Source of the DNA: Tubiluchus corallicola
Lineage: Eukaryota > Priapulida > Priapulimorpha > Priapulimorphida > Tubiluchidae
Direction of reading: 5' to 3'
Assembly (NCBI GenBank): GCA_030141605.1
Contig: JAQGDQ010000236.1
Location: 216,001-280,000, forward strand
Length of the DNA: 64,000 bases
Within the stretch, counting starts at the first letter, position 1, and each line of letters begins with the position of its first letter. This document shows, in pieces, positions 3,001 through 32,194 of this stretch. Made by a program: the position numbers and the translations under genes. The notes beneath the pieces were generated by a model. That model was not told the origin of the DNA. It did not search any database and saw nothing but the letters and a program-made list of their open reading frames with translations.

Positions 3001-6000
3001 CTGCAAAAAGAACCATTGTATGTACATTAAGAAAAAGAAAGGAATTAAATTATGATGCATATAAGCTAAAGAATCCGGTTACAAGACAATTAAATTTCTG
3101 ATTATGTAAAATACGCCATTTTAAAGCTACAACAGCCATTTTGCATATAAATATGACAATCTGTAGATATGAAGTTGCATAGCTATACGAGTTGAACTTC
3201 ATATAGTAAAACACAACTGTTACACAATTGTCAGAAAATGTTAATGATTGGTGCAATTTGTTGGATAAAGGTAAAAAAGTGGATGTTTGACTACGCCAAA
3301 GCATTTGACAGTGTTGTACATTCTAAATTATTTGTTAAATTGCATAATTAGGGTGTCTCTGGCAATTTGTACAACTGGATCAAAAATTTTCTGTCCAGTC
3401 GAACATAGCGCGCATCATACCGAGTTTGGCTTTTTTAGACTGGAAATCTGTAATCTCCGACAGCCCACAGGGTAGTACATGGGTACTCCTGTTGTTTGTT
3501 TTATTTATTAATGATTTATCTGAAGTTCTTGATTCTGTTACTTGTAAACTATATACTGATGATTTGAAGATGTATGCTTCATGTACCCACCATTCAGTTT
3601 TTTGTAGTGCTATCGACCAATTAACAGACTAGTCCTACAAATGACAACTTAATAAAGCTGCACATAAGTGTACCATGCTTCATCTAGGATTTGCAATCCT
3701 GATCCTCAGTATTCCCTTGATGGTATTCCTCTTACTCATAGTACCGAATGTAATGATTAGGGTGTTACAGTATCAACGGGCTTGAAATGCTCAACACTCC
3801 GTCAAAATTTTAGTTTCTAAAGCATTTCGTAAACTAAATACGATTTTTTGGTAATTCTACACTAAAAACAAAAATGCACTGTCGACTGCTTGCAAATCTT
3901 ATGTGCATCCCTTGTTGGAGTACTGCTCATCAGTGTGGTCCACGCACCATATGTAAGATATTAACAGCATTGAAAAAGTCCAGAGATATTTTTCTCAGGC
4001 TGTACCAGATGTCAGTTTAATTATGTTTCTTATTCAGACAGATCATCATAACTAAAATTGCAGCCACTCAAATTAAGACACACTCTGATCTTAAGACGGT
4101 AGACAAAGTTTGGCATGAAATGGTGGGTGCAAATTTTGATGATTTTTTTCAGGATGCTTCAACCAGTGAATTGCGTGGTCACAACTTTAAACTGTTTAGG
4201 TCTTTTTCGAGATTAAACGTCTCAAAATTTTCATTTGCTAACAGAGTTGTAAACATTTTGAATGTTGCGGATTCTCATGTAGTTGATGCTACCAGTTTGT
4301 CAGTTTAGTAGTCAATTAGCTAATGTTTGTACTACTTTAATATATGTATAAATGTTAATAAAAAAGTAAAAACAAATTGTTTCTTAATACAGGGAAGAAA
4401 TAATGTACATGTATTAATAACAGGTGCCTTGATGAATGAACTACCTGTTCCTCATTAGCTGCAAGCTCTTTCTCTCGTTTCTCAAGCTTTTCAATAACAA
4501 CCTGGACTTGTTTCTCCATCTCAGTATACTGAGAGATCTTCTTCTTTAATAGCTCCTCACGTTCCTGTTCACGTGACTTCCACTCTGTTGCCAAATTTGA
4601 CAGCAAACGCCGTTCCTTTTCCTTTAACTGTAAATGAGATCAAGTGTATCATGCAGTTAACATGTATATGATACGTATTCATACTGCACAACAACTGCAC
4701 AAGCAAAAAGTTTCAGAGAACAAAATTACCAAATTTTCAATCACTGATTAAAAATTGCAGCCTAAAAGTGACTAATCTTTACTATGTAAGACATCAATAA
4801 ATGTGGCCAGTGTTTGGATTCAAAATAAAACAGTTAATATACGTTTGGTAAAAAATCTCATGCATACAAACAGCACATTCTAATATTAATAACAAGTTCA
4901 TATAAACAAGAGGTGTGGGTTTTCATTCATAAGGTATACAATTAATCAGTGCCATCTACAACTGCTAAACTGGCTGTGTGCTGCAAGTGTGTCAGTGCAC
5001 ACAATGTTCATCTGTGCGAATATGTAGCCCAGTAATAAGATGTATAAATTTTAGTGTTTTTAAGGGCCAATTACTTGTACAATTTTCAACAACAAATTCG
5101 ACATCAGTTAATTGTTGTTCAGCATAATTCACATTTATTAGTTTTGACTTATTGTGTTCACCTGTTGAAAGCATACTAGTCAGTCAATTAAACCGCCTGA
5201 CTAATATTAAAGTAAATCTAACATGATTCACTTATCCGAGAGAAGTGTAAATTAACACATCTCTTCAACTGGAACAAAAGCACGGCATGTGCACAATCGC
5301 TTCATAATGTTACTGGGTAGAAATAATCTTTGACATTTCGAGATTATGATCAAGATTCTAGAACTTTTAAAAGGCTAAATGAAGTTGATTTGGAAGTACA
5401 ACTTGATCCTCTTGTGATGATTTAACATTTAGTGTAACAATAGCTGCTGTGCTCTCTAATGAAGACACTGAAAGAAAACACAGCACGCTGATAAAACTAA
5501 TTAGAATCATGCTGCATTGTACAAAAATGAGCTACCTTTTAAATAAATGCATGTTGCACGTTCGTCACTGTGCGCAGGGTGATATCATAGCACGTAAGAC
5601 ATACATAAAATGAAACGCTTATTATAAGATCTTCACTGACAATTCTTCCGTATTGGTAAAAGGATGCATGTGCAAGGAAGCAGAATCTCCATGTTTCAGC
5701 AAAACTCACTCGCGAAATGAAAAAGCAAATTTCTCTAAAATTGTTGTTGGTGATATCATACTTTCTGGCCTTTGGAAATAAAGGTCACGCAGATTTCTTC
5801 TACAGCTGTGAAAGACCAGGTTCTTATAACATCACCGAAAAACTTAACCCTGCCTCTGCTGTACAGAAGTGTAACACAAGTGAAGAAACGGCTAATCAGG
5901 CCTTGTCATTCATTACAACTTATAAGTACTATATCAGAGGTATTGGATACCCTGTAGTTTACGCATTTGGCTTTGTTGGGCATGTTGTCAATTTTGCAGT

Positions 6001-9000
6001 CTTCTTTCGTAGTAAACGACTCAAAGGCCCTGCCTATACATACATAAGATCGGTGTCTATTGTGGATTTTATTCTGATTCACGTGATTTTATCCTCTGCA
6101 ATAATAACGGAGCACTTTACTAGATGGAAATTCTTTGCTGCCTGGTATTATTCTAAGTTGTTCATCTGTCTCATTAACTATTTAATATTCAGCAGTAATT
6201 ATATAACGGTGGGATTAACTGTGGACAGATATACCGCTGTTTGCCATCCAACAAAAATTCAAAGTCTACGTAAACAGAAAACTGTGAATATAATAATTCT
6301 ACTGGCTTTCTGTTTCTCGTTGATCCTGGTATTTCCAGATTTCTTCAGAAGGTATGTAGTAGAGAAAAGGCATCAGGATGGTACACTAACCTATTCATAT
6401 AAACCAAATCCAGTCGTGGTTAATCACCATGTATATAAGTATTTTTATTCTGTAACCAGAGGGTTATTTGGGCAACTCATACCTACACTGACGGTAGTCA
6501 TACTCAACATTTTAACAATTCACCAATACAGACGTAAAAATGCTAGGATGAAATTATCTACCCAAGTGGGTTCAAGATTTCAAGAAAACGCTATGAAAGA
6601 AGAAAGAAGGCTGTTTATTTTCTTGACAACCATTTCCGCCACATTTCTGTTTTTCACATTCCCTAATACAATTGTTAGTACCATCCTTCGCTACAAATTT
6701 GCTTGGACCAAAGAAGAAGCATTTAAAACTATTCAACAGACGACCAATACCTTGCTGTTCATGAACCACGCTGTTAACATGTACATCTATCTTTTAGTCA
6801 GTTCCGAATTCAGACGATGTTTCAGAGAAGTATTTTCTAATCGTAGTAGGAATACCTTGGCACCTACGGAAACGCCACAAGACAGTAACAAAACACCTGC
6901 AAACAGGACACAGTTTAGCAGTGAACAGCAGCAAACATCAAAGGCTGGAACCAGTGCGGAAACAGAGCTTTTCTAACAGCAGCAAGCACTTAGAATAAAC
7001 CTTTTCCAGGCTTGTCGTTGTTTCTTTTACATTTAATTTATGCACCTTAAGAATTCAAATGAGTAACTTAAAACAATTCTGTAATTAAGAGAAGTTACCC
7101 AGTGAAGTGCAGAAAATGTCCGAAACTAAGACTGGTGCACAGTCATTCAACGAAAGTGAAAAGAACTGATCAATTCCAGCAAGTAAAATGGTGCACAGTC
7201 ATTCAACGAAAGTGAAAAGAACTGCTTAATTCCAGCAATTAAAATGGTGCACAGTCATTCAATGAAAGGGAAAAGAACTGATCAATTCCAGCAATTAAAA
7301 TGCTGCACAGTCATTCAACGAAAGTGAAAAGAACTGATCAATTCCAGCAATTAAAATGGTGCACAGTCATTCAACGAAAGTGAAAAGAACTGATCAATTC
7401 CAGCAATTAAAATGGTGCACAGTCATTCAATGAAAGGGAAAAGAACTGATCAATTCCAGCAATTAAAATGGTGCACAGTCATTCAATGAAAGTGAAAAGA
7501 ACTGATCAATTCCAACAATTATACTGGTGCACAGTTGTTCAATGAAAGGGAAAAGAACTGATCAATTCCAGCAATTAAACTGGTGCACAGTCATTCAATG
7601 AAAGGGAAAAGAACTGATCAATTCCAGCAATTATACTGGTGCACAGTCATTCAATGAAAATGAAAAGAACTGATCAATTCCAGCAATTAAAATGGTACAC
7701 AGTCATTCAATGAAAGGGAAAAGAACTGATCAATTCCAACAATTATACTGGTGCACAGTCATTCAGTGAAAGGGAAAAGAACTGCTCAATTCCAGCAATT
7801 AAAATGGTGCACAGCCTTTCAATGAAAGTGAAAAGAACTGATCAATTTTAGCAATTAAAATGGTGCACAGTCGTTCAATGAAAGGGCAAAGAACTGGTCA
7901 ATTCCAGCAATTAAAATGGTGCACAGTCATTCAATGAAAGTGAAAAAAACTGATCAATTCCAGCAATTAAAATGGTGCACAGTCATTCAATGAAAGGGAA
8001 AAGAACTGCTCAATTCCAACAATTATACTGGTGCACAGTCGTTCAATGAAAGTGAAAAGAACTGATCAATTCCAGCAATTAAAATGGTGCACAGTCATTC
8101 AATGAAAGGGAAAAGAACTGCTCAATTCCAGCAATTATACTGGTGCACAGTCATTCAATGAAAGGGAAAAGAACTGATCAATTCCAGCAATTATACTGGT
8201 GCACAGTCATTCAATGAAAGGGAAAAGAACTGTTCAAGTCCAGCAATTAAAATGGTGCACAGTCGTTCAAAGAAAGGGACAAGAACTGATCAATTCCAGC
8301 AATTAAACTGGTGCAGTCATTCAGTGAAAGGGAAAAGAACTGCTCAATTCCAGCAATTAAACTGGTGCACAGTCGTTCAATGAAAGTGAAAAGAACTGAT
8401 CAATTCCAGCAATTAAAATGGTGCACAGTCATTCAATGAAAGGGAAAAGAACTGATCAATTCCAGCAATTAAAATGGTGCACAGTCATTCAACGAAAGGG
8501 AAAAGAACTGCTCAATTCCAGCAATTACACTGGTGCACAGTCGTTCAACAAAGTGAAAAGAACTGATCAATTCCAGCAATTAAAATGGTGCACAGTCGTT
8601 CAACGAAAGTGAAAAGAACTGATCAATTCCAGCAATTAAAATGGTGCACAGTCGTTCAACGAAAAGAACTGATCAATTCCAGCAATTAAACTGGTGCACA
8701 GTCGTTCAATGAAAGTGAAAAGAACTGATCAATTCCAGCAATTAAAATGGTGCACAGTCGTTCAATGAAAGGGAAAATAAATCCTCAATTCCAGCAATTA
8801 AACTGGTGCACAGTCATTCAACGAAAGTGAAAAGAACTGATCAATTCCAGCAATTAAAATGGTGCACAGTCATTCAATGAAAGGCAAAAGAACTGATCAA
8901 TTCCAGCAATTAAAATGGTGCACAGTCATTCAATGAAAGGGAAAAGAACTGCTCAATTCCAGCAATTACACTGGTGCACAGTCGTTCAACGAAAGTGAAA

Positions 9001-12000
9001 AGAACTGATCAATTCCAGCAATTAAAATGGTGCACAGTCGTTCAACGAAAGTGAAAAGAACTGATCAATTCCAGCAATTAAAATGGTGCACAGTCATTCA
9101 ACGAAAGTGAAAAGAACTGATCAATTCCAGCAATTAAAATGGTGCACAGTCATTCAACGAAAGTGAAAAGAACTGATCAATTCCAGCAATTAAAGTGGTG
9201 CACAGTCATTCAATGAAAGGGAAAAGAACTGATCAATTCCAGCAAATTTACTCATGGCTTTCCACATGACAGGAACGTTTACCTGAACCTGAAATAGTTT
9301 AACAACAATTAAGTCAACTTAATGAAGAATATGACAGCTCATTTTTCCCTGGCTTTATATTAGCCAGAAACATTTAAAGGCAACTGCAGCAGAGAGAGAA
9401 TCAACGGACATTTATCACACTGTGAGTAGCCATAGTTTTACCTGTAATAAAATTTGTCAGATCATCCTCAGCATGTGAAAATAATATTATTGCATGTATA
9501 AATATTAGTAAAGCCTGATTGTTTTTCCCTTGGATTAATAATCTTAGGCTGGAATGCAAAATATGAGTGCATGATCTTGTCGCTTGTCACTCCTAATTAT
9601 TCATTATGAATTATAGCAAGTTGTTAATTTTTACAACAGGATTGTGAGTCCAAATGTTCGCAGTATAAATTTTTGGTACCAACTGTGTTCTGTGCAGTTG
9701 CTTAAGATTAAAATAGACCTGCATTATTTACACCTAGAGTTGAGTGTAAATTCTTGTTTCATTTCATGTTACTGCTTATTTTTAACGCTTTTCAATCAGT
9801 GAATGTTAATGAGGGCGTCTATTTTGTTCATGAAGTGGAAAACTTGGATTTTTTTCTATTTATGTCTAGGCGAAGAATCTCAAATCTAGTGATTAAGTAA
9901 CCTACTTGTCTCCGTGAACAACAGAAAGCAAAATAAGAAATTATACAATGTTGAAAAAGAATGAAATTATTGTATTGAGTGAATCACTTCACTTGCTTCT
10001 TTGTTGGAGAGCAGAGGAAACCAGAAAAAGCTATGGACAATAAAAACAAAGCATTAAATTGTAGATACGACTTATTTTACATGACTAATATATGATTAAG
10101 TAGTGCCGAATTTAAGTGGCTTTAATATGATATCCTTTGATCTTTTTATACAACTTGCAAGCTGGAATCCACTGTTCAAAGGCGCAGCCTGCTGAATGAT
10201 GGCAGTTGTGGCAAGACAGGCACCTGGACCATTATCAAGGATTATGAAGGATATCGCTCTAAGATGAGTCATGAATCGACAGTGTTTTAACCGTATTTAT
10301 ACATTTCTTGTCTTTGCGAGGTTTAAAATCCGGAACTACCTTAGCGAATAAAACCGCCCACAGTGAGTAACGAACCCAGGCAATCACTAGGGTTGAGCAT
10401 TCTCTACCAGAAAGCGAACTTGAATCAAATTGAATTTGTGACTTTCAACCTCGAACCAAACCATATTTTAGCATTTTCAAATCCGAATCGAATTCGAATC
10501 CAGTTTTAATAATTTTCTAAAAAAATGTTCGAATCACTGATAAAAAGCGGTCTCTCGAAGATTATGCATATTACTTCATTTAATTCTGCAGTAAAAACAC
10601 TAATAATACGTTCAAAAATTGCGCATAGAAATCACAGCTAAAATTTGCTAATTGCACGATGTTTCGAATGCTTTAATGATAATGAACTGTATGTAGGTTG
10701 AAAGGCTGAATTACAATAATCTATAATTTTAGGTGTGAATCGAATTCGAATGTAAAAAAACTTGTTAGAATTGATTTTGAACATTCAAACTCGATGCTCG
10801 CTCTTGGTGATCAAGCAGCACTCAAGTATACACAGCATACATGACTATAATTTGAACAGTAAATCTTTTTAGTTTTCATTTACCTGGGATATATGCAAAA
10901 TGATGTTGCATGGTCTCTGTAATTGTCAAAGGTTATAGATATTACTTGTTTGTCTGCATTCTGCACTGCTGTTATCAGTTGTAATACATGCTGCTGCGTT
11001 TGCCACTATGATAACACCTTGTGTTGGAGATATGGTCCGCAGCTCATTCTCAAAATCGATTTCTACTAATAAAATATCTGAGCTTTGCAAAAATACCTGC
11101 AGTTTTCTTTAACTTTTTTTACCAATATGGGTAAACCGATTCATATCATCGTCAACACCGTCACATACTATCAGATTACTGCCATTATGCAGCCAAACAT
11201 ATTTTATATTGTACCGGACACTTTAAGTCCAAAATCTGGTAAAAATTATTATTAAGATCCAGTCCGAGTCTGTTGAGAAAAATCCGATATTTACCTGACT
11301 TTCGACTGCACAAGAAATCCAAGTAGATGCAGCGTTTTGTATTGTGATAGACAGAACGAACAGTGGCTACTGGCTACAAGCTAAACGTTACTTTTTGCTA
11401 CATTAAATTTTGCAGTTTTGGGTATTTAGCCACTATGCGTATTTATAACTTCAAATATTTGGTACCCTTCTAGAATTTCTAAAAACATAACTTTTTGGAT
11501 TCTGAAGGCTATTACAGCTATTCCACGCGTATATCTACAAGCATGCTACTGCTGTAAAGAACAGCAAGCAAGTAAACGGTACCAGAATGGTTAATGAAGT
11601 GTTGAAATTAACGATAAGATCTCATTAGCTAGATGATCTGGCCGTCTGGGATATACACATATATGTCCGGGTCCAATCGGGATCTAGTCTGGTTTGGGTA
11701 GCAAAAATCCGGATCTGGTCTGTGTCCTGTGCAGAACAAAGTTTGAGTTTGCCACTGAATAATATTTACATTGTTTTGATACACTTAACACCCAATTTCT
11801 TTGTTTTCATCCACTAACTAGTCTTTGTTAATTCTTTGTAAGTACAAATTTATAAAGTTAATTAATTACAGGATGTAAAGATAAGGTTTGTGCCATCAGC
11901 AGAAAGATGCCGTATCAGTAGCAAGAGTTAAGTTAATAAGGCAGATAAGGAAAAACAGTGGTTCCTTCATAGATCCTTGAAGTATACAGCATGGTTTACT

Positions 12001-15000
12001 TTAGGAAGACCGAATCAGTATACTATTTATTGGCGAACTGCTGCCAAATGCAGAGCTAAGATGTAAAAAGATCCAAGATAACATCTCTCATGATTTAATT
12101 TATGCATAGGAATTTCAAGCTCTGTCGAATGTAGGTGAAAATAGCACAGGTAAAAATGGCACGGTAAAAATGGTACAGGATAAAATGGCATGGTAAAAGT
12201 GGCACAGGAAAAAAATGGCACGGTAAAAATGGCATTTTTTCCTGTGCCACTTTTTCCTGTGCAATTTTTTTCTTGTGCCATTTTACCTACTTTTCCATTT
12301 GTGCCATTTTTTTCCCTGTGGCATTTTTTCCTGTGGCATTTTTTTCTGTGCCATTTTTACCGTGCCATTTTTTTCTTGTGTTTGGATTCAAAATAAAACT
12401 GTTAATATACTTTAGTAAAAAACCTCAAGCATACAAACAGCACATTCTAATATTAATAACAAGTTCATATAAACAAGAGGTGTGGGTTTTCATTTATAAG
12501 GCATACAATTAATCAGTGCCATCTACAACTGCTAAACTGGCTGTGTGCTGCAAGTGTGTCAGTGCACACAATGTTCATCTGTGCGAATATGTAGCCCAGT
12601 AATAAGATGTACAAGTTTTAGTGTTTTTAAGGGTCAAATATTAACCATTAGTTAATTGTTGTTCAGCATAATTCACATTTATTAGTTTTGGCTTATTGTG
12701 TTCACCTGTTGAAAGCATACTAGTCAGTCAATTAAACCGCCTGACTAATATTAAAGTAAATCTAACATGATTCACTTATCCGAGAGAAATGTAAATTAAC
12801 ACATCTCTTCAACTGCAACAAAAGCACGGCATGTGCACAATCTCTTCATAATGTTACTGGGTAGAAATAATCTTTGACTTTTCGCGATCATGATCAAGAT
12901 TCTAGAACTTTGAAAAGGCTAAATGAAGTTGATTTGGAAGTACAACTTGATCCTCTTGTGATGATTTGATATTTAGTAACAATTTAATTTGTTTGGCATT
13001 CAATCTGTCCAACCTGGGTAAATTCAACAACAGCTCTACCTGCTTTCTCCAAAGAAGACTCGCCTACTTTTAAAGACAAGATAACAATAGTACAAACTGC
13101 TGTGTTCTCTAATGAAGACATGGAAGTAAAACACAGCATGCTGATAAAACTAATCAGAATCATGCTGCTTTGTACAGAAATTAGCTACCTTTTAATTAAA
13201 TGCATGTTGCACGTTCATCACTGTGCGCAGGGTGATACCATAGCACGATAGACATACATAAAATGAAACGCTTATTATAAGATCTTCACTGACAATTCTT
13301 CGGTCTTTGTAAAAGGATGCATGTGCAAGGAAGCAGAATCTCCATGTTTCAGCAAAACTCACTCGCAAAATGAAAAAGCAAATTTCTCTAAAATTGTTAT
13401 TGGTGATATCATACTTTCTGGCCTTTGGAAATCAAGGTCACGCGGATTTCTTCTACAGCTGTGAAAGACCAGGTTCTTATAACATCACCGAAAAACTTAG
13501 CCCTGCCTCTGCTGTACAGAAGTGTAACACAAGTGAAGAAATGGCTAATCAAGACTTGTCATTCATTACAACTTATAAGTACTATATCAGAGGTATTGGA
13601 TACCCTGTAGTTTACGCATTTGGCTTTGTTGGGCATGTTGTCAACTTTGCAGTCTTCTTTCGTAGTAAAAGACTCAAAGGCCCTGCCTATACATACATAA
13701 GATCGCTGTCTATTGCGGATTTTATTCTGATTCACGTGATTTTATCCTCTGCAATAATAACCGAGCACTTTACTAGATGGAAATTCTTTGCTGCCTGGTA
13801 TTATTCAAAGTTGTTCATCTGTCTCATTAACTATTTAATATTCAGCAGTAATTATATAAAGGTGGGATTAACTGTGGACAGATATACCGCTGTTTGCCAT
13901 CCAACAAAAATTCAAAGTCTACGTAAACAGAAAACTGTGAATATAATAATTCTACTGGCTTTCTGTTTCTCGTTGATCCTGGTATTTCCAGATTTCTTCA
14001 GAAGGTATGTAGTAGAGAAAAGGCATCAGGATGGTACACTAACCTATTCATATAAACCAGATCCAGTCGTGGTTAATCACCATTTATATAAGTATTTTTA
14101 TTCTGTAACCAGAGGGTTATTTGGGCAACTCATACCTACACTGACGGTAGTCGTACTCAACATTTTAACAATCCGCCAATACAGACGTAAAAATGCCAGG
14201 ATGAAATTATCTACCCAAGTGGGTTCAAGATTTCAAGAAAACGCTATGAAAGAAGAAAGAAGGCTGTTTATTTTCTTGACAACCATTTCCGCCACATTTC
14301 TGTTTTTCACATTCCCTAATACAATTGTTAATACCATCGTTCGCTACAAATTTGCATGGACCAAAGAAGAAGCTTTTGAAACTATTCGACGGACTGCCAA
14401 TATCTTGCTGTTCATGAACCATGCTGTTAACATGTACATCTATCTTTTAGTCAGTTCCGAATTCAGACGATGTTTCAGAGAAGTATTTTCTAATCGTAGA
14501 AGGAATTCCTTGGCACCTATGGAAATGCCACAAGACAATAACAAAACACCTGCAAACAGAAAACAGTTTAGCAGTGAACAGCAGCAAACACCAAAGGCTG
14601 GAACCAGTGCGAAAACAGAACTTTTCTAACAGCAGCAAGCACTTAGAATAAACCTTTTCCAGGCTTGTCGTTGTTTCTTTTACATTTAATTTATGCACCT
14701 TAAGAATTCAAATGAGTAACTTAAAACAACTCTGTAATTAAGAAAAGTCACCCAGTGAAGTGCAGAAAATGTCCGAAACTAAAACTGGTGCACAGTCATT
14801 CAACGAAAGTGAAAAGAACTGATCAATTCCAGCAATTAAAATGGTGCACAGTCGTTCAACGAAAAGGAAAAGAACTGATCAATTCCAGCAATTAAAATGG
14901 TGCACAGTCGTTCAACGAAAAGGAAAAGAACTGATCAATTCCAGCAATTAAAATGGTGCACGGTCATTCAATGAAAGGGAAAAGAACTGATCAATTCCAG

Positions 15001-18000
15001 CAATTAAAATGGTGCACAGTCGTTCAATGAAAGGGAAAAGAACTGATCAATTCCAGCAATTGAAATGGTGCACAGTCATTCAATGAAAGGGAAAAGAACT
15101 GCTCAATTCCAGCAATTAAACTGGTGCACAGTCATTCAACGAAAGGGAAAAGAACTGATCAATTCCAGCAATTTTACTCATGGCTTTCCACATGACAGGA
15201 ACGTTTACCTGAACATGAAATAGTTTAACAACAATTAAGCCAACTTAATGAAGAATATGACAGCTCATTTTTCCCTGGCTTTATATTAGCCAGAAACATT
15301 TAAAGGCAACTGCAGCAAAGAGAGAATCAAAGGACATTTATCACACTGTGAGTAGCCATAGTTTTACCTGTAATAAAATTTGTCAGATCATCCTCAGCAT
15401 GTGAAAATAATATTATTACACGTATAAATATTAGTAAAGCCTGATTGCTTTTCCCTGGAATTAATAATCTTAGGTTGGAATGCAAAATATGAGTGCATGA
15501 TCTTGTCGCTTGTCACTCCTAATTATTCATTATAAATTATAGCAAGTTGTTAATTTTTACAACAGGATTGTGAGTCCAAATGTTCACAGTATAAATTTTT
15601 TGATACCAACTGTGTTCTGTGCAGTTGCTTAAGATTAAAATAGACCTGCATTATTTACACCTAGAGTTGAGTGTAAATTCTTGTTTCATTTCATGTTACT
15701 GCTTATTTTTAACGCTTTTCAATCAGTGAATGTTAATGAGGGCGTCTATTTTGTTCATGAAGTGGAAAACTTGGATTTTTTCTATTTATGTCTCGGCGAA
15801 GAATCTCAAATCTAGTGATTAAGTAACCTACTTGTCTCCGTGAACAACAGAAAGCAAAATAAGAAATTATACAATGTTGAAAAAGAATGAAATTATTGTA
15901 TTGAGTGAATCACTTCACTTGCTTCTTTGTTGGAGAGCAGAGGAAACCAGAAAAAGCTATGGACAATAAAAACAAAGCATTAAATTGTAGATACGACTTA
16001 TTTTACGTGACTAATATATGATTAAGTAGTGCCGAATTTAAGTGGCTTTAATATGATATCCTTTGATCGTTTTATACAACTTGCAAACTGGAATCCACTG
16101 TTCAAAGGCGCAGCCTGCTGAATGATGACAGTTGTGGCAAGACAGACACCTGGACCATTATCAAGGATTATGATGGATATCGCTCTAAGATGAGTCATGA
16201 ATCGACAGTGTTTTAACCGTATTTGTACGTATACATTTCTTCTCTTTGCGAGGTAAACATCCGGAACTACCTTAGCTAATGAAACTGCCCACAGTGAGTA
16301 ACGAACCCAGGCAATCACTAGGGTTGAGCATTCTCTACCAGAAAGCGAACTTGAATCAAATTGAATTTCTGACTTTCAACCTTGAACCAAACCGAATTTT
16401 AGCATTTTCAAATCCGAATCGAATTCGAATCCAGTTTTAATGATTTTCTAAAAAATGTTCGAATCACTGATAAAAAGCAGTCTCTCGAAGATCATGCATA
16501 TTACTTCATTTAATTCTGCAGGCAAAATGCTAATAATATGTTCAAAAATTGCGCATAGAAATCACAGCTAAAATTTGCTAATTGCATGATGTTTCGAATG
16601 CTTTAATGATAATGAACTGTATGTAGGTTTAAAGGCTGAATTACACTAATCTATAATTTTAGGTTTGAATCAAATTCGAATGTAAAAAAACTTGTTAGAA
16701 TCGATTTTGAACATTCAAACTCGATGCTTGCTCTTGGTGATCAAGCAGCACTCAAGTAGATACAGCATACATGACTATAATTTGAACAGTAAATCTTTTT
16801 AGTTTTCTTTTACCTGGGATATGTTGATGTTGATGTTGCATGGTCTCTGTAATTGTCAAAGGTTATAGATATTACTTGTTGTTCTGCATTCTGCACTGCT
16901 GTTATCAGTTGTAATACATCCTGCTGTGTTTGCCACTATGATAACACCTTGTGTTGGAGATATGGTCCGCAGCTCAATTCTCAAAATCGATTTCTACTAA
17001 TAAAATATCTGAGCTTTGCAAAAATACCTGCAGTTTTCTTTAACTTATTTTACCAATATGGGTAAAGCAATTCATATCATCGTCAACACTGTCATATACT
17101 ATCAGATTACTGCCATTATGCAGCCAAACATATTTTATATTGTACCGGACACTTTAAGTCGGAAATCTGGTAAAAATTGTTATTAAGATCCAGTCCGAGT
17201 CTGTTGAGAAAAATCCGATATTTACCTGACTTTCGACTGCACAAGAAATCCAAGTAGATGCAGCGTTTTGTATTGTGATAGACAGAACGAACAGTGGCTA
17301 CTGGCTACAAGCTAAACGTTACTTTTTGCTACATTAAATTTTGCAGTTTTGGGTATTTAGCCATTATGCGTATTTATAACTTCAAATATTTGGTACCCTT
17401 CTAGAATTTCTAAAAACATAACTTTTTGGATTCTGAAGGCTATTACAGCTATTCCACGTGTATATCTACAAGCATGCTACTGCTGTCATCAGCAGAAAGA
17501 TGCCGTATCAGTAGCAAGAGTTAAGTTATTAAGGCAGATAAGGAAAAACAGTGGTTCCTTCATAGATCCTTGAAGTATACAGCATGGTTTACTTTAGGAA
17601 GACAGAATCAGTCTACTATTTATTGGTGAACTGCTGCCAAATGGAAAGCTAAGATGTAAAAAGATCCAAGATAACATCTCTCATGATTTAATTTATGCAT
17701 AAGAATTTCAAGCTCTGTCGAATGTAGGTGAAAACAGCACAGGTAAAAATGGCACGGTAAAAATGGTACAGGATAAAATGGCACGGTAAAAATGGCACGG
17801 TAAAAATGGCACAGGAAAAAATGGCACAGGAAAAAATGGCACAGGAAAAATGACACACTTAATAAAAAATGTGTTTATGGTTGGGGTTACAGTGGGGGAT
17901 AATTATTTTAATTATTAGTACCTCTGCCAAGGAAGTTATACTTCACACAGTTTGTTTGTCTGCTTGTTTGCTTATTTTTGCCTGTTATGGTAGTAAGCCT

Positions 18001-21000
18001 ATTATGCAAAAACTATCTAACAGATTTCCAAGAAACTGTGAAGAAAGACGGGTATAGAGAGTGCCAAAATGGAAATCTTTTCGCCAGTTATTTATTCGCA
18101 AAAAATGACCGAACACTACGTACAAAAAAAAACAAACATTCGTGAAACACTTCAAGGAGGTCTCAGAGGGGGCGTTTGGTGCTTCTTTTTTTGTTATTTC
18201 CACCTGGACGAACAACTACAAATTAGTTGCAGTTCCATTTCGAGAAATTCTCGCCTGTAAAACTGTCTAACGCTGTCCATAACCTTTACTTATTAATGTG
18301 CATAGCCTTATAAGGTGACTTGGTATGTAAATACAGTATGTATACATTTGTCAGTCTACTACTATTGCGAAAATTAACGGTTAAAAAGGTAAATAAACAC
18401 TATGTGAAACATTCATGTATTATTGATTATAAATCTATGTAATGAATAAAATATATTTTGTGTGTTTTGCTAGTGTATATAATACCAATACACATTTTTG
18501 CATGTTTGCTTGTTTATTTTTGCGTTATTTTTTTTTATCAGAAGAATCAGATGAATAAGTTTAGGATTGTTTGGCAGAGATCAGTTTCGTACTGAGCGCA
18601 TTCTAGTTTTATTATAGAAATCAATCGCATTTTCCTACTTTTACATTTTTACCCACTTTTCCATTTGTGCCATTTATCCTGTGCCATTTTTTCCTGTGCC
18701 ACTTTTTCCTGTGCAATTTTTTTCTTGTGCCATTTTACATACTTTTCCATTTGTGCCATTTTTCCTGTGCCATTTTTTCCCTGTGGCATTTTTCCCTGTG
18801 GCATTTTTTTCTGTGCCATTTTTACCGTGCCATTTTTTCTTGTGTTTGAATTCAAAATAAAACTGTTAATATACTTTAGTAAAAAACCTCAAGCATACAA
18901 ACAGCACATTCTAATATTAATAACAAGTTCATATAAACAAGAGGTGTGGGTTTTCATTCATAAGGTATACAATTAATCAGTGCCATCTATAACTGCTAAA
19001 CTGGTTGTGTGCTGCAAGTGTGTCAGTGCAGACAATGCTCATCTGTGCGAATATGTAGCCCAGTAATAAGATGTACAAATTTTAGTGTTCTTAAGGGCCA
19101 AATATTAACCATTAGCTAATTGTTGTTCAGCATAATTCACATTTATTAGTTTTGGCTTATTGTGTTCACCTGTTGAAAGCATACCAGTCAGTCAGTCAAA
19201 CTGTCTGACTAATATTAAAGTAAATCTAACATGATACAATTATCCGAGAGAAGTGTAAATTAACACATCTCTTTTACTGCAACAAAAGCACGGCATGTGC
19301 ACAATCTCTTCATAATGTTACTGGGCAGAAATAATCTTTGACTTTTCGAGATCATGATCAAGATTCTAGAACTTTGAAAAGGCTAAATGAAGTTGATTTG
19401 GAAGTACAACTTGATCCTCTTGTGATGATTTAACATTTAGTTAATTGTAACAACAGCTGCTGTGTTCTCTAATGAAGACACTGAAAGAAAACACAGATCG
19501 CTAATAAAACTAATCAGAATCATGCTGCATTGTACAAAAATGAGCTACCTTTTAAATAAACGCATGTGCACGTTCGTCACTGCGCACAGGGTGATATCAC
19601 GAAAGACATACATATAATGAAACGCTTATTATAAGATCTTCACTGACAATTCTTCGGTCTTTGTGAAAGGATGCAGAATCTCCATGTTTCAGCAAAACTC
19701 ACTCGCGAAATGAAAAAGCAAATTTCTCTAAAATTGTTGTTGGTGATATCATACTTTCTTGCCTTTGGAAATCAAGGTCACGCGGATTTCTTCTATAGCT
19801 GTAAAAGACCAGGTTCTTATAACATCACCGAAAAACTTTACACTGCCTCTGCTGTACAGAAGTGTAACACAAGTGAAGAAACAGCTAATCAGGACTTGTC
19901 ATTCATTACAAGTTATAAGTATTATATCAGAGGTATTGGATACCCTGTAGTTTACGCATTTGGCTTTGTTGGGCATGTTGTCAACTTTGCAGTCTTCTTT
20001 CGTAGTAAACGACTCAAAGGCGCTGCCTATACATACATAAGATCGCTGTCTATTGTGGATTTTATTCTGATTCACGTGATTTTATCCTCTGCAATAGTAA
20101 CCGAGCACTTTACTAGATGGAAATTCTTTGCTGCCTGGTATTATTCAAAGTTGTTCATTGCTCTCATTAACGGTTTAATATTCAGCAGTAATTATATAAC
20201 GGTGGGATTAACTGTGGACAGATATACCGCTGTTTGCCATCCAACAAAAATTCAAAGTCTACGTAAACAGAAAACTGTGAATATAATAATTCTACTGGCT
20301 TTCTGTTTCTCGTTGATACTGGTTTTTCCAGATTTCTTCAGAAGGTATGTAGTAGAGAAAAGGCATCAGGATGGTACACTAACCTATTCATATAAACCAA
20401 ATCCAGTCGTGGTTAATCACCATGTATATAAGTATTTTTATTCTGTAACCAGAGGGTTATTTGGGCAACTCATACCTACACTGACGGTAGTCGTACTCAA
20501 CATTTTAACAATCCGCCAATACAGACGTAAAAATGCTAGGATGAAATTATCTACCCAAGTGGGTTCAAGATTTCAAGAAAACGCTATGAAAGAAGAAAGA
20601 AGGCTGTTTGTTTTCTTGACAACCATTTCTGCCACATTTCTGCTTTTCACATTCCCTAATACAATTGTTAGTACCATCCTTCGCTACAAATTTGCCTGGA
20701 CCAAAGAAGAAGTATTTAAAACTATTCGACAGATTACCAATACCTTGCTGTTCATGAACCACGCTGTTAACATGTACATCTATCTTTTAGTCAGTTCCGA
20801 ATTTAGACGATGTTTCAGAGAAGTATTTTCTAATCGTAGCAGGAATACCTTGGCACCTACGGAAATGCCACAAGACAGTAGCAAAACACCTGCAAACAGG
20901 ACACAGTTTAGCAGTGAACAGCAGCAAACACTAAAGGCTGGAACCAGTGCGAAAACAGAACTTTTCTAACAGCAGCAAGCACTTAGAATAAACCTTTTCC

Positions 21001-24000
21001 AGGCTTGTCGTTGTTTCTTTTACATTTAATTTATGCATCTTAAGAATTCAAATGAGTAACTTAAAACAATTCTGTAATTAAGAGAAGATACCCAGTGAAG
21101 TGCAGAAAATGTCCGAAACTAAAACTGGTGCACAGTCTTTCAACAAAAGTGAAAAGAACTGATCAATTCCAGCAATTAAACTGGTGCACAGTCATTCAAC
21201 GAAAGTGAAAAAAACTGATCAATTCCAGCAATTAAACTGGTGCACAGTCATTCAGTGAAAGTGAAAAGAACTGATCAATTCCAGCAATTAAACTGGTGCA
21301 CAGTCTTTCAACGAAAGTGAAAAGAACTGATCAATTCCAGCAATTAAACTGGTGCACAGTCATTCAACAAAAGTGAAAAGAACTGATCAATTCCAGCAAT
21401 TAAACTGGTGCACAGTCATTCAACGAAAGGCAAAAAACTGATCTATTCCAGCAATTAAACTGGTGCACAGTCATTCAGTGAAAGGGAAAAGAACTGCTCA
21501 ATTCCAGCAATTAAGCTGGTGAACAGTCATTCAACGAAAGTGCAAATAACTTATCAATTCCAGCAATTAAACTGGTGCACAGTCATTCAGTGAAAGTGGA
21601 AATAACTGATCAATTCCAGCAATTAAACTGGTGCACAGTCATTCAGTGAAAGGGAAAAGAACTGCTCAATTCCAGCAATTAAGCTGGTGCACAGTCATTC
21701 AACGAAAGTGCAAATAACTGATCAATTCCAGCAACTAAACTGGTGCACAGTCATTCAGTGAAAGTGAAAATAACTGATCAATTCCAGCAATTAAACTGGT
21801 GCACAGTCATTCAGTGAAAGTGAAAATAACTGATCTATTCCAGCAATTAAACTGGTGCACAGTCATTCAGTGAAAGTGAAAATAACTGATCAATTCCAGC
21901 AATTAAACTGGTGCACAGTCATTCAGTGAAAGTGAAAATAACTGATCTATTCCAGCAATTAAACTGGTGCACAGTCATTCAGTGAAAGTGAAAATAACTG
22001 ATCAATTCCAGAAATTAAACTGGTGCACAGTCGTTCAACGAAAGTGAAAATAACTGATCAATTCCAGCAAATAAACTGGTGCACAGTCGTTCAATGAAAG
22101 GGAAAAGAACTGCTCAATTCCAGCAATTAAACTGGTGCACAGTCGTTCAATGAAAGGGAAAAGAACTGATCAATTCCAGCAATTAAACTGGCGCACAGTC
22201 ATTCAATGAAAGGGAAAAGAACTGGTCAATTCCAGCAATTAAACTGGTGCACAGTCATTCAATGAAAGGGAAAAGAACTGATCAATTCCAGCAATTAAAC
22301 TGGTGCACAGTCATTCAATGAAAGGGAAAAGAACTGATCAATTCCAGCAAGTAAACGGGTGCACAGTCGTTCAATGAAAGGGAAAAGAACTGGCCAATTC
22401 CAGCAGTTTTACTCGTGGCTTTCCACACGACAAGAACGTTTACCTGAACCTGAAATAGTTTAACAACAATTAAGCCAACTGAATGAAGAATATGACAGCT
22501 CATTTTAACTGTAATAAAATTTGTCAGATCATCTTCAGCATGTGAAAATAATATTATTACACGTATAAATATTAGTAAAGCCTGATTGTTTTTCCCTGGG
22601 ATTAATAATCTTAGGTCGGAATGCAAAATATGAGTGCATGATCTTGTCGCTTGTCACTCCTAATTATTCATTATAAATTATAGCAAGTTGCTAATTTTTG
22701 CAACAGGATTGTGAGTCCAAATGTTCACAGTATAAATTTTTGGTACCAACTGTGTTCTGTGCGGTTGCTTAAGATTAAAATAGACCTGCATTGTCTACAC
22801 CTACAGTTGAGTGTAAATTCTTGTTTCATTTCATGATACTGCTTATTTTTAACGCTTTTCAATCAGTGAATGTTAATGAGGGCATCTATTTTGTTCATGA
22901 AGTGGAAAACTTGAATTTTTTCTATTTATGTCTAGGCAAAGAATCTCAAATCTAGTGATTAAGCAACCTACTTGTCTCTGTGAACAACAGAAAGCAAAAT
23001 AAGAAATTATACAATGTTGAAAAAGAATGAAATTATTGTATTGAGTGAATCACTTTACTTGCTTCTTTGTTTCAGAGCAGAGAAAACCAGAAAAAGCTAT
23101 GGACAATAAAAACAAAGCACTAAATTGTAGATACGACTTATTTTACATGACTAATATATGATTAAGTAGTGCCGAATTTAAGTGGCTTTAATATGATATC
23201 CTTTGATCTTTTTATACAACCTGCAAACTGGAATCCACTGTTCAAAGGCACAGCCTGCTCAATGATGACAGTTGTGGCAAGACAGGCACCTGCACCATTA
23301 TCAAGGATTATGAAGGATATCGCTCTAAGATGAGCCATGAATCTACAGTGTCTTAACCGTATTTGTACGTATACATTTCTTCTCTTTGCGAGGTGAACAT
23401 CCGGAACTACCTTAGCGAATGAAACCACTCACAGTGAGTAACGAACCCAGGCAATCACTACGGTTGAGCATTCTCTACCAGAAAGCGAACTTGAATCAAA
23501 TTGAATTTCTGACTTTCAACCTTGAACCAAACCAAATTTTAGCATTTTCAAATCCGAATCGAAATCGAATCCAGCTTTAATGATTTTCTAAAAAATGTTC
23601 GAATCACTGATAAAAAGCGATCTCTCAAAGATCGTGCATTTAATTCTGCAGTAAAAACACTAATAATATGTTCAAAAATTACGCATAGAAATCACAGCTA
23701 AAATTTGCTAATTGCATGATGTATCGCATGCTTTAATGATAATGAACTGTATGTAGGTTGAAAGGCTGAATTACACTAATCTATAATTTTAGGTTTGAAT
23801 CGAATTCGAATGTAAAAAAAACTTGTTAGAATTGATTTTGAACATTCAAACTCGATGCTCGCTCTTGGTGATCAAGCAGCACTCAAGTATACACAGCATA
23901 CATGACTATAATTTGAACAGTAAATCTTTTTAGTTTTCATTTACCTGGGATATATGCAAAATGATGTTGCATGGTCTCTGTAATTGTCAAAGGTTATAGA

Positions 24001-27000
24001 TATTACTTGTTTTTCTGCATTCTGCACTGCTGTTATCAGTTGTAATACATGCTGCTACGTTTGCCACTATGATAACACCTTGTGTTGGAGATATGGTTCG
24101 CAGCTCATTCTCAAAATCGATTTCTACTAATAAAATATCTGAGCCTTGCAAAAATACCTGTAGTTTTCTTTGACTTTTTTTTACCAATATGGATAAACCG
24201 ATTCATATCTGCATCAACACTGTCACATACTATCAAATTACTGCCATTATGCAGCCAAACATATTTTATATTGGCCGCTTTACATATTCTCACAAAAATT
24301 TAAAGTAGGGACTGGTACCGGACACTTTAAGTCCGCAAACTGGTAAAAATTATTATTAAGATCCAGTCCGAGTTTGTTGAGAAAAGTCCGATATTTACCT
24401 GACTTTCGACTGCACAAGAAATCCAAGTAGATGCAGCGTTTTGTATTGTGATAGACAGAACGAACAGTGGCTACTGGCTACAAGCTAAACGTTACTTTTT
24501 GCTACATTAAATTTTGCAGTTTTGGGTATTTAGCCACTATGCATATTTATAACTTCAAATATTTGGTACCCTTCTAGAATTTCTACAAGCATAACTTTTT
24601 GGATTCTGAAGGCTATTACAGCTATTCCACGCATATATCTACAAGCATGTTACTGCTGTAAAGAACAGCAAGGCCATCAAGTAAATGGCACCAGAATAGT
24701 TAATGAAGTGTTTCAATTAACGATAAGATCTCACTAGCTAGATGATCTGGCCGTCTGGGATATACACATATATGTCCGGGTCCAATCGGGATCTAGCCTG
24801 GTTCGGGTAGCAAAAATCCGGATCTGGTCCGTGTCCTGTGCACAACAAAGTTTGAGTTTGCCGCTGAATAATATTTAACTTGTTTTGATATACTTAACAC
24901 CCAATTTCTTTGTTTTCATCCACTTGCAAGTCTTTGTTAATTCTTAGTAAGTACAAATTTGTAAAGTTAATTAATTACAGGATGTAAAGATAAGGTTTGC
25001 GTCATCAGCCGAAAGATGCCGTATCAGTAGCAAGAGCTAAGTTATTAAGGCAGATAAGGAAAAACAGTGGTTCCTTCGTAGATCCTTGAAGTATACAGCA
25101 TGATTTATTTTAGGAAGACAGAATCGGTATACTATTTATTAGTGAACTACTGCCAAATGGAAAGCTAAGATGTAAAAAGATCCAAGATAACATCTCTCAT
25201 GATTTAATTTATGCTAAGGAATTTCAAGCTCTGTCGAATGTAGGTGAAAATAGCACAAGTAAAAATGGCACGGTAAAAATGGTACAGGATAAAATGGCAC
25301 GGTAAAAATGGCACAGGAAAAAATGGCACGGTAAAAATGGCACAGGAAAAATAACACACTTAATAAAAGATGTGTTTATGGTTGGGGTTACAGTGGGGGA
25401 TAATTATTTTAATTATTAGTACCTCTGCCAAGGAAGTTATACTTCACACAGTTTGTTTGTCTGCTTGTTTGCTTATTTTTGCCTGTTATGGTAGTAAGCC
25501 TATTATGCAAAAACTATCTAACAGATTTCCAAGAAACTGTGAAGAAAGACGGGTATAGAGTGCCAAAATGGAAATCTTTTCGCCAGTTATTTATTCGCAA
25601 AAAATGACCGAACACTACGTACAAAAAAAACAAACATTCGTGAAACACTTCAAGGAGGTCTCAGAGGGGGCGTTTGGTGCTTCTTTTTTTGTTATTTCCA
25701 CCTGGACGAACAACTACAAATTAGTTGCAGTTCCATTTCGAGAAATTCTCGCCTGTAAAACTGTCTAACGCTGTCCATAACCTTTACTTATTAATGTGCA
25801 TAGCCTTATAAGGTGACTTGGTATGTAAATACAGTATGTATACATTTGTCAGTCTACTACTATTGCGAAAATTAACAGTTAAAAAGGTAAATAAACACTA
25901 TGTGAAACATTCATGCATTATTGATTATAAATCTATTTAATGAATAAAATATATTCTGTGTGTTTTGCTAGTGTATATAATATCAATACAGGTACATTTT
26001 TGTATGTTTGCTTGTTTATTTTTGCATTATTTTTTTTTAATCAGAAGTATCAGATGAATAAGTTCAGGATTGTTTGGCAGAGATCAGTTTCGTACTGAGC
26101 GCATTTTAGTTTTATTATAGAAATCAATCGCATTTTCCTACTTTTACATTTTTACCCACTTTTCCATTTGTGCCATTTTTCCTAATTTTTCATTTGTAGA
26201 ATTTTTTCCTGTGCCATTTTACCTACTTTTCCATTTGTGCCATTTTTACCTGTGCCATTTTTTCCTGTGGCATTTTTTCTTGGGCCATTTTTACGGCGCA
26301 TCTCTCTGACATGTCGAAACATTCAGATAAATTTTGATGAGTTATTTTGGCAAATAGATTTCATGTCGTTGTTTCACTTTCAGAAAATTGATACAGGTTC
26401 CTCAAAATAACTCTGGCAAGAATTGCAATTATAATCTACCGGTAATATATAGAGTTTGAAGGGGACATTTCCAAATGTGTTTTTTCACAATTCATTTATA
26501 ATAGGTATCATTGTGCAAAACGACAATAAATAACAGCTTTTCGCTATTGACCTAAAGCAACATATGAAATCATAAAAACTGAGTCTATTTTACCACATTT
26601 TAGTGACACATTGGACAAAAACTAGTTTACCTAACTTATTTAGTTGAGAAACTGTTAGCTACTCTTTTCAAAATTCGGTGTTCTCAACAAAAAATGAAAA
26701 GAAACGAGAAAATTTTCCAGCTCAATTTCACTGCTCCCACTGAGCCAAACGAATTCAGTATCTATAAGATTACGACTCTACAAAGAAGAGATGAAAAGAA
26801 ACACACACCAAAGAAACATCAAGCAACAAAGAACGAAAAATAATTAAGTGCAGAAGAAAGATTATATCTTTTTGCAAGCGGAGCAAATAAATTAGAAACT
26901 AAGAATAGTTTGTGTTGTTGAGAAATGGCTTCAGTAATGGATTATTTACTTGTGCTGACAAAAACTCATATAATCTTTTCACTAACAAAGCTGATTAGAA

Positions 27001-30000
27001 CTGCAACTGATGCAATGTAGAGAACAGGGGCAAATTTTTATATAAATGAAGGTAATTTACGCTGGTGATGCGCTAAAAACATGGTATCTGGCTTTCACAT
27101 TGCAAATGGCAGATTCATTCAAAAATTACATACTCCCAGGGGAATACGATAAAAGGATGAGCAAGGAAGCAGGAAGCCCAGTTTTGTTAAAAAATAATGA
27201 TATAAAGATGGGGAGAAATATTTCTGCAAGGCTCCAGCTGGCGACCTTGTTGGTATTTCTTGTTCTTGGAAAACACTGTGATGCATTTTTAAAAGATTTC
27301 AAGTGCAACAATGCAGAGGCTTACAATGTCTCTTATGAGTATGCTAAACAAAACCACAGCTCAACTTTGTATTCTGATCAGAAGTGTAATGTAAGTGAAG
27401 AAACAGCTAGAAAAAATTCGCAATTTGCTGTACAATTCAAGTATCAAATCAAAGGAATCGGATACCTGGTAGTTTATGCATTTGGCTTTGTGGGGCATGT
27501 CGTTAACATTGTGGTATTCTTTCGTAGTAAGCGACTCAAAGGCGTTTCCTATACGTACATTCGATGGCTCGCTGTTGTAGATTTTATTACCATCCATGTG
27601 TATTTATCAACGGCTATTATAACTGAGCATTTATATAGCTGGAGCTTCTTTGCTGTTTGGTACCAAGCAAAAGCCTTTCTTGGCTTGCTTACCTACTGCA
27701 AATTTATCAGCAATTATCTGACGGTGGCATTAACTGTAGACAGACATGCAGCTGTCTGCCATCCTATGAAAATACAAAGTTTACGCAGACAGAAAACAGT
27801 AAATATAATTGTTCTTCTCATTTGCTGTTTCTCGTTAGCACTAGTATTTCCCGATTTCTTTAGAAGCGTAATAGTGGAAGAAGCAAACCAGAATGGAACT
27901 GTAACATACTCGTACAAAATTAATTATGATGTAGTCAACCACCCAGCATACAAGCGCTTCTATTCTGTAACCAGAGGGTTATACGGACAACTCATACCCA
28001 CGTTTATGGTAGTCATACTCAATTTTTTGACAATTCGCCAATACAGACTCATAAAAGCACGAATACGACAAAGCACACAGCAAAATTTGCAAACTCCAGG
28101 AAACACTATAAAAGAGGAAAGAAGACTTTTCGTTTTCTTGGTAACAGTGTCTGCCACCTATCTATTCTTCACTCTGCCCAATACTGTGGTTGCTACAGTT
28201 TCTCGCTACAAGTATGCCTGGAACAATAACACGACCTTCGTAATTATCAGATGGATTGCCAACATCATGGGTTTTATGAACCATGCTTTAAACATGTACA
28301 TCTATGCTGTCGCAAGTTCCGAGTTTAGACGCTGTCTTAGAGAAGTATTTACTAATTCGGTCAGAAATTCTGTAGCACCACAATATGTGCCACAAAACAT
28401 CGGCATGTCTGCAGCTAACGAATCACCTGCAAACTGGATGGAGTCAAGTGGTAGAAGAATTCCAAAAAACACTACAAGTGCAAAATTCAGTGATGCCGGT
28501 GCACACTATAGCAACGACTGAAACAAACCATTCTCCTTGGCATCTTAGGTTATCCGAAAGGTTTGTTCTGCTCTGATTTTTACCACAGAGGATGAGTTTG
28601 GTTGTCAAATTTTCAGTAAACGAAAAAATTATTTTGCACACAAAAACGCGACAGTATCACACCGAGAAAAACAACTTAGTGATACTGCCCAGTAAGAAAA
28701 GAATGAAAAATCAGCTTTATATACACCTTCATGACTGACGTCAGCAGTCAGAGGATTACAGCAACAGTAGAAGCAACAAGGACAAAGGAGGTGATGGACA
28801 AATGTGTTTTATTTTTCTTTGAAATTAAAACTTTTGAATGAAATTGTAATCATCATTAGCCAATGATTAGAAACAGCAAGAATTATAGTATGACATTTTT
28901 GCCAAGGCTTGCTTAGTGTGGTAAGACTGGAACCTAATTGTCTAAGGAGTTTCACTGGATTAACATACGACCTCAATGAACATGATAGCTAGTTTGATAT
29001 TTCAAATGGCTGAGAGCTAGCAATCATGTTAAACAGCATAGAAGCTTTTACAGCTCCCAGCTATCAAGTTACTCAAGTAAGAGGTCTACCTCTGAAATTA
29101 TCAGAGTCAAACTTAACTAATAGAAGACAGTACATTCCTATTAACAATAGGACTTCATCCTTCAAAAAAATAATGCATGGACTTCCACTGGGATCTAATT
29201 TAGGACCAATCTTATTTTTACTTTATATTAATGAGTTATCCGGATACTTTAAAAAAAATTGGAAACTTTCGTGCTGTTTAAACTTGAAATTTGAATCTAT
29301 TTGCTATGCCTTTTGAAAATTGATAGGTAGGTTAAATGAGGATATTTTGCCATGACTTCAGTTTTTTGATTCCATTATTAGACAGCGCTTACCAAGCCTT
29401 TGCTGCAACTACAAAGTTGTTAGATGCAAAACTTCAAGATAAATATTGCAGAGTTCACGCTCACTTTCCGATGGGCATTCATTTACTGAAGTTTACCAAC
29501 TCACCCCCCCGCCCCCATGCTTATAAATCAGAAATTCCAAGAAACTGCCGTAGTAGTTTGCTAGCTAGTGCTTTGACAAGAACTACTAGGCAATTCTGTT
29601 TAGTGAGTAGTAAAGTTAACTGCATTCTGTGAAAAGTGGAATAAATCTAGACCCCTAAACCATGATCATTTCAAGGAAAGTACCCCAATCAGTTTAGACT
29701 CGTAAATCAAGAGTGGCACATCTCTGGATAAAATGTTACTAGTCACCCGTTAAATTTATATACAAATAAGGAAAAAATTCTCGTCTCTATGGCATTTTAA
29801 AAAGCCTTACTTTATTGTGTCCACCCTATGTTTCAAAAAATTTTGTTTTAGAAGAGCAAAACCTGTGATCACTGATTGCACAAAGAAATCAGCTTAGAAT
29901 CCTAAATCAACGATTTATGATGAATTAAAAAACAGAAAACTAAGAACTATAAACAAACAGTAAGCGCCTCATTTATCGTGAATGGGTATATCAACAAATG

Positions 30001-32194
30001 GCAGTGGTGCATCAGTAATTGCACGACTCACTACAGTCGACCCTCGTTAGCCCGGATATCGGATAAGACGGACGTCATCCGTGGTAAAGGAAACTGACCG
30101 ATTTCCGATATTTATACGTACACTGTACTTTTTTATTATTTAAACTGTACAATAATTTCTTTATCCTCACAGGTTAACTATTTTAAAGTAATATACAGTA
30201 TAGTATATGGTGCACAGTATGTAGTGCAATGTATATAGGCCCTATTAAGGTGATTATTCCTGTATAATGTAGACCATATATAGGCATATCGGCTAAATCA
30301 GACAATCGGCTAAACCGGACCCCCCCCCCCCCCCCAATTAGTCCGGTTTAATGAGGGTTGACTGTACTAGACTTTGCTGTGTGACATTGTGTCATTTTAA
30401 GTGTAGCTTTGCTGTGTGACATTGTGTCATTTTAAGTGTAGCTATTTCAATAGTCTAATAACTCATTATTAAAAACTGGTGTTTATTATGTTTTTGGAAA
30501 ACTTAAAAAAGTAATGGATGTTTAACATTTTCTTTTGCATGTTTTGCAAAGATCAAACAATTTGTTCAAGCATGTAATAATAACAAAAGACACTTAGAGA
30601 GCTTGTAGCAAAATCCAAAATAAATTTTCTCTAAAAAGCTTTCAGATTTAGGAAACTTTCAGGAATCTCAGGATCGTAGCTCAATACATTTTGTAAAACA
30701 TCAATAACAATCATGCTGTTTCTCTTAGTTGCTATTATCAAATCGATCGACTCAGTGGCTACAGTGGCTATAGCATGCGAGTTTGCCTAGTATTTCAATG
30801 AAATTATCCCCACATCTTTACACTCCAGAAAGTAACATTCACACGAATAGTGGCAGTAATTTGTATTTGCCATTGTGGGAAACGAAAACAAGTAAAATCA
30901 CACGCAGTTTGAAATTCAACCTCGTCGACTTAAAACAACAAGTTAGGACTCACTGACAAGGGCAGTTAGTAGGGGCGTTGCCCACTGCAGACAATCAATA
31001 ACACGTGTTTCAAAATATACGACATGCACATCATTAAATACTAAGGCCTGCTGTAATTATTTGAAAAACCATAGTAAATAAGTTTTGTGCTGCAACATTT
31101 TGTTCGAGTCAAACAAATGTTCACTTGATTAATGCACTTAACATGTAAAAATAAGTGGGAAAAACAGTAAACATTTCCTTATTTGTACATGTAAATTTGA
31201 TGTATGCGTGTTCGAGTAAACTGTGTTAAAAACAAATGTGAAAAAATAAAACGTGTTTGACTGCATTGTACAATTGTCATTTTCAACTTCTAGAATTTCA
31301 TTGGTTGTCACTGGCGAGAATAACACTAAAAGGTCTTATAGAGTAAACTGTATATCTCGTTAGTCAATAGGCATAAGAAAAACGCTCTTTTAAGCAAGTC
31401 ACCTTTCCTTTTTTCTGCATGCCCGTTAACTTTTTGCACATACCTCCATTTCGAATAAACGCTCCTGCGTTTCTTTCCAAATCTCTAATTCATGAGCAGC
31501 CTGAAGTTCGGACATCCGATGCGGGTTAGCAGCAAAAATGGTCTTGTCAATTTGACGTGGGCTGCCCATTGGCTCCTTTTTCTGCCCTGCTCCGGCTTTA
31601 CTAGGTTGCATTGTACTTTGACCATAAATTCCTCTTCGAGCCTAAAATTAAACACACTTTAGTAAAATGTCAAAGGTTACCAATTGACATCAATTATTTT
31701 TTACTCCCACTCACTGACTTCATTTTGTTAATTTGTAAAACAGGATAACACATACACATGGCTGAAAGCTACTGCATTGTGCAATGCATAATTCACTTTG
31801 GGAATTTAGAGTGGTAAAACAAATATTCTTTGTAGTTTGAATCCATAAGAAAACTGTAGCCAAAGTCTATGTTCTTAGCTCTTGTCTACAGAAAAATTTA
31901 AACATTTTGTACATGATCCTAACACATAATTGCATGCTATGTTCAGTTGAGCTTTGGGCACAATTTGGGCCAAGGCCTAAAAAAGAGAAGTGATCATGCG
32001 TGTGACCTTCCTACATTTTACCACAAACATGTAGGATGACATCATTAATTTTTGATTAATCATCAAAATTCACCGTTCTAAAGCAGATGCAGCTCAATGA
32101 GCTGTGCGTAACATGACTGGAGCCTGGCTAGTTATCAACAAAATATCTCAAAGACGAGCCACTGAACCAGCAGAGGAGTTTTAGACATGTTTGC

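Follow-up and report, generated by a model that had tools for sequence, protein, structure and literature searches.

Four intronless GPCR genes nested antisense within one CEP120 intron of Tubiluchus corallicola, with a probable ancient duplication and recent amplification of one copy

In the 64,000-bp stretch of the Tubiluchus corallicola assembly analysed here (contig JAQGDQ010000236.1; "the window"), four plus-strand open reading frames of 419, 419, 432 and 491 aa, denoted W1 to W4, lie at 5717-28521, wholly within one intron (4628-31443) of the conserved gene CEP120 and on the strand opposite to it (Table 1). Most probably this is a nested family of intronless receptors that duplicated anciently and of which one copy has recently been amplified, with CEP120 spliced across the block. 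The arrangement appears to fit the different-strand kind of nested gene, which lies within one intron, with coding exons of the host on both sides and on the opposite strand.

Table 1. Positions in the window of the CEP120 exons and intron, the nested receptor genes and the tandem units.
Feature	Position	Strand	Remark
CEP120 N-terminal C2-domain exon	50219..50512	-	match extent; splice ends approximate
CEP120 exon upstream of nested intron	31444..31641	-	phase-0 end, donor GTATGT
CEP120 intron, 26,816 bp, without CEP120-like sequence	4628..31443	-	
CEP120 exon downstream of nested intron	4445..4627	-	phase-0 start after acceptor TTTACAG
Next CEP120 exon downstream; gene continues past cluster	2017..2178	-	
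W1, intact single-exon rhodopsin-class GPCR, 419 aa	5717..6976	+	AATAAA at 6994
W2, intact single-exon GPCR, 419 aa	13370..14629	+	AATAAA at 14647
W3, intact single-exon GPCR, 419 aa from W1/W2-aligned start	19710..20969	+	AATAAA at 20987
W4, intact older single-exon GPCR paralogue, 437 aa from W1-W3-aligned start	27208..28521	+	
Tandem unit 1, W1 and 56-bp minisatellite (7133-9245, ~38 copies)	4810..12375	+	
Tandem unit 2, W2 and 56-bp minisatellite (14780-15173, 7 copies)	12376..18841	+	
Tandem unit 3, W3 and 56-bp minisatellite (21122-22405, ~23 copies)	18842..26294	+	right end approximate
Junction of units 1/2, end of (CATTTTT..TGTGC) repeat array joined to GTGTTTGGATTC	12340..12410	+	recurs at 18800-18880

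The host gene was traced by tblastn with the human CEP120 protein, used as a lead, against the window and the sequence flanking it. On the minus strand, exon-sized matches succeed one another in the right order between 50512 and -2942, the latter position being 2.9 kb past the left edge of the window. The identity of the gene rests on more than this query, because the N-terminal exon matches the C2 domains of CEP120 in the PDB (6ewl, E=3.6e-33; 4icw; 6flj) and the locus is the only one in the assembly with the Pfam domain PF12416. The order expected of CEP120, with the N-terminal C2 domain followed by the PF12416 domain and then the coiled-coil C terminus, was confirmed.

The initial annotation had proposed that exons 31641-31444 and 4627-4445 encode adjacent CEP120 residues with phase 0 at both borders, and this is borne out. 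Human residues 619-670 correspond to 31602-31444 and residues 671-740 begin at 4627 (tblastn); residues 670 and 671 thus adjoin across the intron, and no CEP120 residues are missing between the flanking exons. The borders, ATGGAG/GTATGTGC and TCTCATTTACAG/TTAAAG, are GT/AG and in phase 0 on both sides. CEP120 exons inside the cluster, the finding that the annotation had set against its own reading, were sought throughout 4628-31443, and no minus-strand tblastn match lies between the borders. Exons 31641-31444, 4627-4445 and 2178-2017 each occur once in the assembly, and neither another copy nor another haplotype of the CEP120 locus turned up in a search of the whole assembly. The nested intron is ~10 times as long as the remaining CEP120 introns with both borders placeable, most of which are ~0.8 to 2.5 kb (among those that can be bounded, leaving aside a few unresolved exons in the 42-31 kb stretch). 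This unusual length is all that was found in favour of the flanking exons being two different genes, or parts of a split transcript, with the cluster intergenic. Such an explanation is extremely improbable, as the residues are adjacent, the phases match, and the exon order is monotonic over the whole protein at one locus.

Several other features of the CEP120 region can be recorded. A 74-bp tandem duplication (2155-2306) spans the 3′ splice site of a CEP120 exon together with the coding bases that directly follow it. Two acceptors are therefore possible, and splicing at the upstream one would lengthen the exon by 74 nt and put it out of frame. A ~670-bp repeat, of which the assembly contains dozens of copies at 85-90% identity, lies in another CEP120 intron at 190-865, and its ~40-bp ends match in inverted orientation, like those of a small DNA transposon. 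Short stretches at 29014-29313 and 3348-3629 resemble, by eye, decayed LINE reverse transcriptase, and interstitial telomere-like CCCTAA repeats are found at 56935-57225. Head to head with CEP120, a plus-strand exon at 53166-53459 matches casein kinase I gamma-3 (2chl, E=3e-11). Human CEP120 and CSNK1G3 are neighbours in the same head-to-head arrangement, and this may therefore be an old conserved gene order.

That ~26.8 kb of the intron holds four intact, intronless receptors on the opposite strand had also been claimed from the first reading, and the frames agree with it. All four match Pfam 7tm_1 (E 7e-22 to 8e-26; 78.6-91.5 bits against a cut-off of 30.5) from profile positions 5-7 to 256-260 of 260, which settles the receptor class. 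Counted from their first ATGs (19671 and 27046), W3 and W4 have 432 and 491 aa; alignment places the probable starts at the internal ATGs 19710 and 27208. The motif at the end of TM3 is DRY in W1-W3 and DRH in W4, and in an alignment judged by eye none of the four seems to have cysteines at the places expected for the TM3-ECL2 disulfide. By the same kind of inspection, W1-W4 and some related receptors apparently carry two N-terminal cysteines in place of this pair. Among solved structures, the closest in sequence are those of peptide receptors such as the somatostatin, opioid and galanin receptors, at low similarity. W1-W3 have in common an AATAAA 18 nt past the stop codon, which is only suggestive of transcription independent of CEP120. 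Visual inspection and crude codon scoring of ~20 kb around five related receptors revealed no host exons on both sides; the closest of the five lies beyond the apparent 3′ end of a HECT-ligase gene.

Comparison of the sequence with itself resolves the W1-W3 region into three head-to-tail units of 6.5-7.6 kb that are 93-96% identical; W4 lies outside them. Each unit carries one array of a 56-bp minisatellite that occurs at no other site in the assembly. The junctions of units 1/2 and 2/3 have (CATTTTT..CTT)GTGTTTG in common, while different sequence adjoins unit 1 on its left and unit 3 on its right. Shared junctions with different outer edges fit a single illegitimate join and later unequal crossing-over, and we infer this recombination mechanism from the unit structure. 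A 15-bp repeat is arrayed in direct and reverse-complement form near the unit ends (12133-12376; 17726-18844; 25243-26294), with a ~800-bp spacer between 15-bp arrays that is present in units 2 and 3 and absent from unit 1.

Could the array be partly an artefact of assembly, in which two haplotypes were placed end to end? The units differ by 3-7% only, and duplicated stretches are found elsewhere in the assembly, e.g. contigs C1338 and C1677, which are identical over 4 kb and therefore point to some duplicated sequence in it. However, three units are more than two haplotypes can supply, the minisatellite copies are unequal (38, 7, 23), the same recombinant junction stands at both internal boundaries, and the CEP120 exons are not duplicated, all of which makes an artefact very unlikely. 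The 4-kb stretch shared by C1338 and C1677 carries another GPCR.

Genuine tandem duplication is the preferred reading, and the cluster has two ages: it is not a single tandem series but consists of three young copies (W1-W3) and one old paralogue (W4). Ks is 0.06-0.07 among W1-W3 and ~1.3 between these and W4, and the W4 protein is 59% identical to that of W2. In the tree W1-W3 are firmly joined, W4 joins them with weak support (87/67), and a receptor on another contig, C1923, comes next; the five together form a fully supported clade with the C1923 receptor near its base. Because the node that unites W4 with W1-W3 and leaves out the C1923 receptor is weak (87/67), a separate entry of W4 into the intron is conceivable, the two lineages having arrived independently and not through duplication within it. 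We consider this rather unlikely, since W4 is adjacent to W1-W3, has the same orientation and is their closest relative in the best tree.

Under the explanation favoured here, a single-exon receptor would first have come to lie in the CEP120 intron, and an old duplication would have given W4 and the ancestor of W1-W3, although the order of nesting and this first duplication is itself inferred. Two recent tandem duplications may then have produced the three units of ~7 kb. The first would have joined an A/T-rich 15-bp repeat array to GTGTTTGG at the opposite end of the unit; in the second the same arrangement would have been reused through unequal crossing-over. Without two of the units the intron would be ~14 kb shorter, and the duplications have enlarged the CEP120 intron by that amount. 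The initial annotation had attributed the growth of the intron to tandem gene birth. For W1-W3 this is upheld by the three head-to-tail units, the identical junctions and an intron ~10 times longer than the others; it extends less readily to W4, given the old split of W4 and the position of the C1923 receptor near the base.

The frames of the receptors appear to be under constraint. Between W4 and W1-W3 dN/dS is 0.22-0.25; among the young copies it is 0.38, 0.47 and 0.56, with wide intervals, one of the three reaching 1. No stops or frameshifts were found in W1-W3, whereas ~4.7 frameshifting events plus stops would be expected under neutrality as judged from nearby spacer. The joint neutral probability of three intact frames is ~5e-4, in a simple simulation that takes the units' own spacer as yardstick and assumes one start sequence and a star tree. 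Since intact frames are unlikely under neutrality and dN/dS is below 1, W1-W3 are probably working, expressed receptors.

The most likely state of the locus, as far as it can be read from the DNA, is that the nested receptors are transcribed independently and that CEP120 splicing bridges the entire block. Because splicing would span the block, the growth of the intron may largely be a tolerated passenger effect, presumably harmless to CEP120. Alternatively, transcription of the receptors and of CEP120 could be in conflict, as the initial annotation had proposed, or be co-regulated; antisense receptor transcription would then alter how CEP120 is spliced or terminated, and the expansion of the cluster could have been selected for or against on this account. 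Interference has been documented for nested genes in human (PMC3192792), the duplications added ~14 kb to the intron, and ~1.1 kb separates the start of W1 from the CEP120 exon downstream of the intron. Against this, the nested TipE genes of insects correlate poorly with their host (PMC3240667) and the splice sites of the nested CEP120 intron look sound, so that we regard this alternative as improbable. That the growing antisense cluster acts on CEP120 output is more doubtful still; if true, receptor copy number would be tied in cis to the dose of a centriole/cilium gene.

Nesting of this type is already known from other animals. In vertebrates P2RY12 and P2RY13 are nested in MED12L (PMC3933685 Table 1) and, as here, are paralogous rhodopsin-class GPCRs on the opposite strand with host coding exons on both sides. 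The host and the receptor subfamily differ from those of the CEP120 nest, and the MED12L nest is ancient, with conservation as far as fish, whereas three of the four copies in CEP120 are recent. The TipE cluster in an intron of CG18675 in insects (PMC3240667) is likewise a cluster of paralogues within a single intron of a conserved, single-copy host, but it encodes sodium-channel auxiliary subunits, occupies both strands and is conserved across insects. The GMC oxidoreductase genes clustered in an intron of insect Flo-2 (cited in PMC3240667) are another multi-gene family of paralogues in one host intron, with enzymes rather than receptors as the products. Single opposite-strand receptor genes inside a host gene include GPR82 in CASK and CXCR6 in FYCO1 (PMC3933685 Table 1), which, unlike W1-W3, have no local amplification. 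The nest of T. corallicola stands apart in its host gene and in how young three of its copies are.

The CEP120 nest therefore leaves existing knowledge of nesting unchanged. It offers a clean, young case of a gene family expanding in the intron of another gene, in which a single sequence reveals both the duplication junctions and the constraint acting on the copies, and it may be of use in dating and comparing the growth of nested clusters and in asking whether the host notices.
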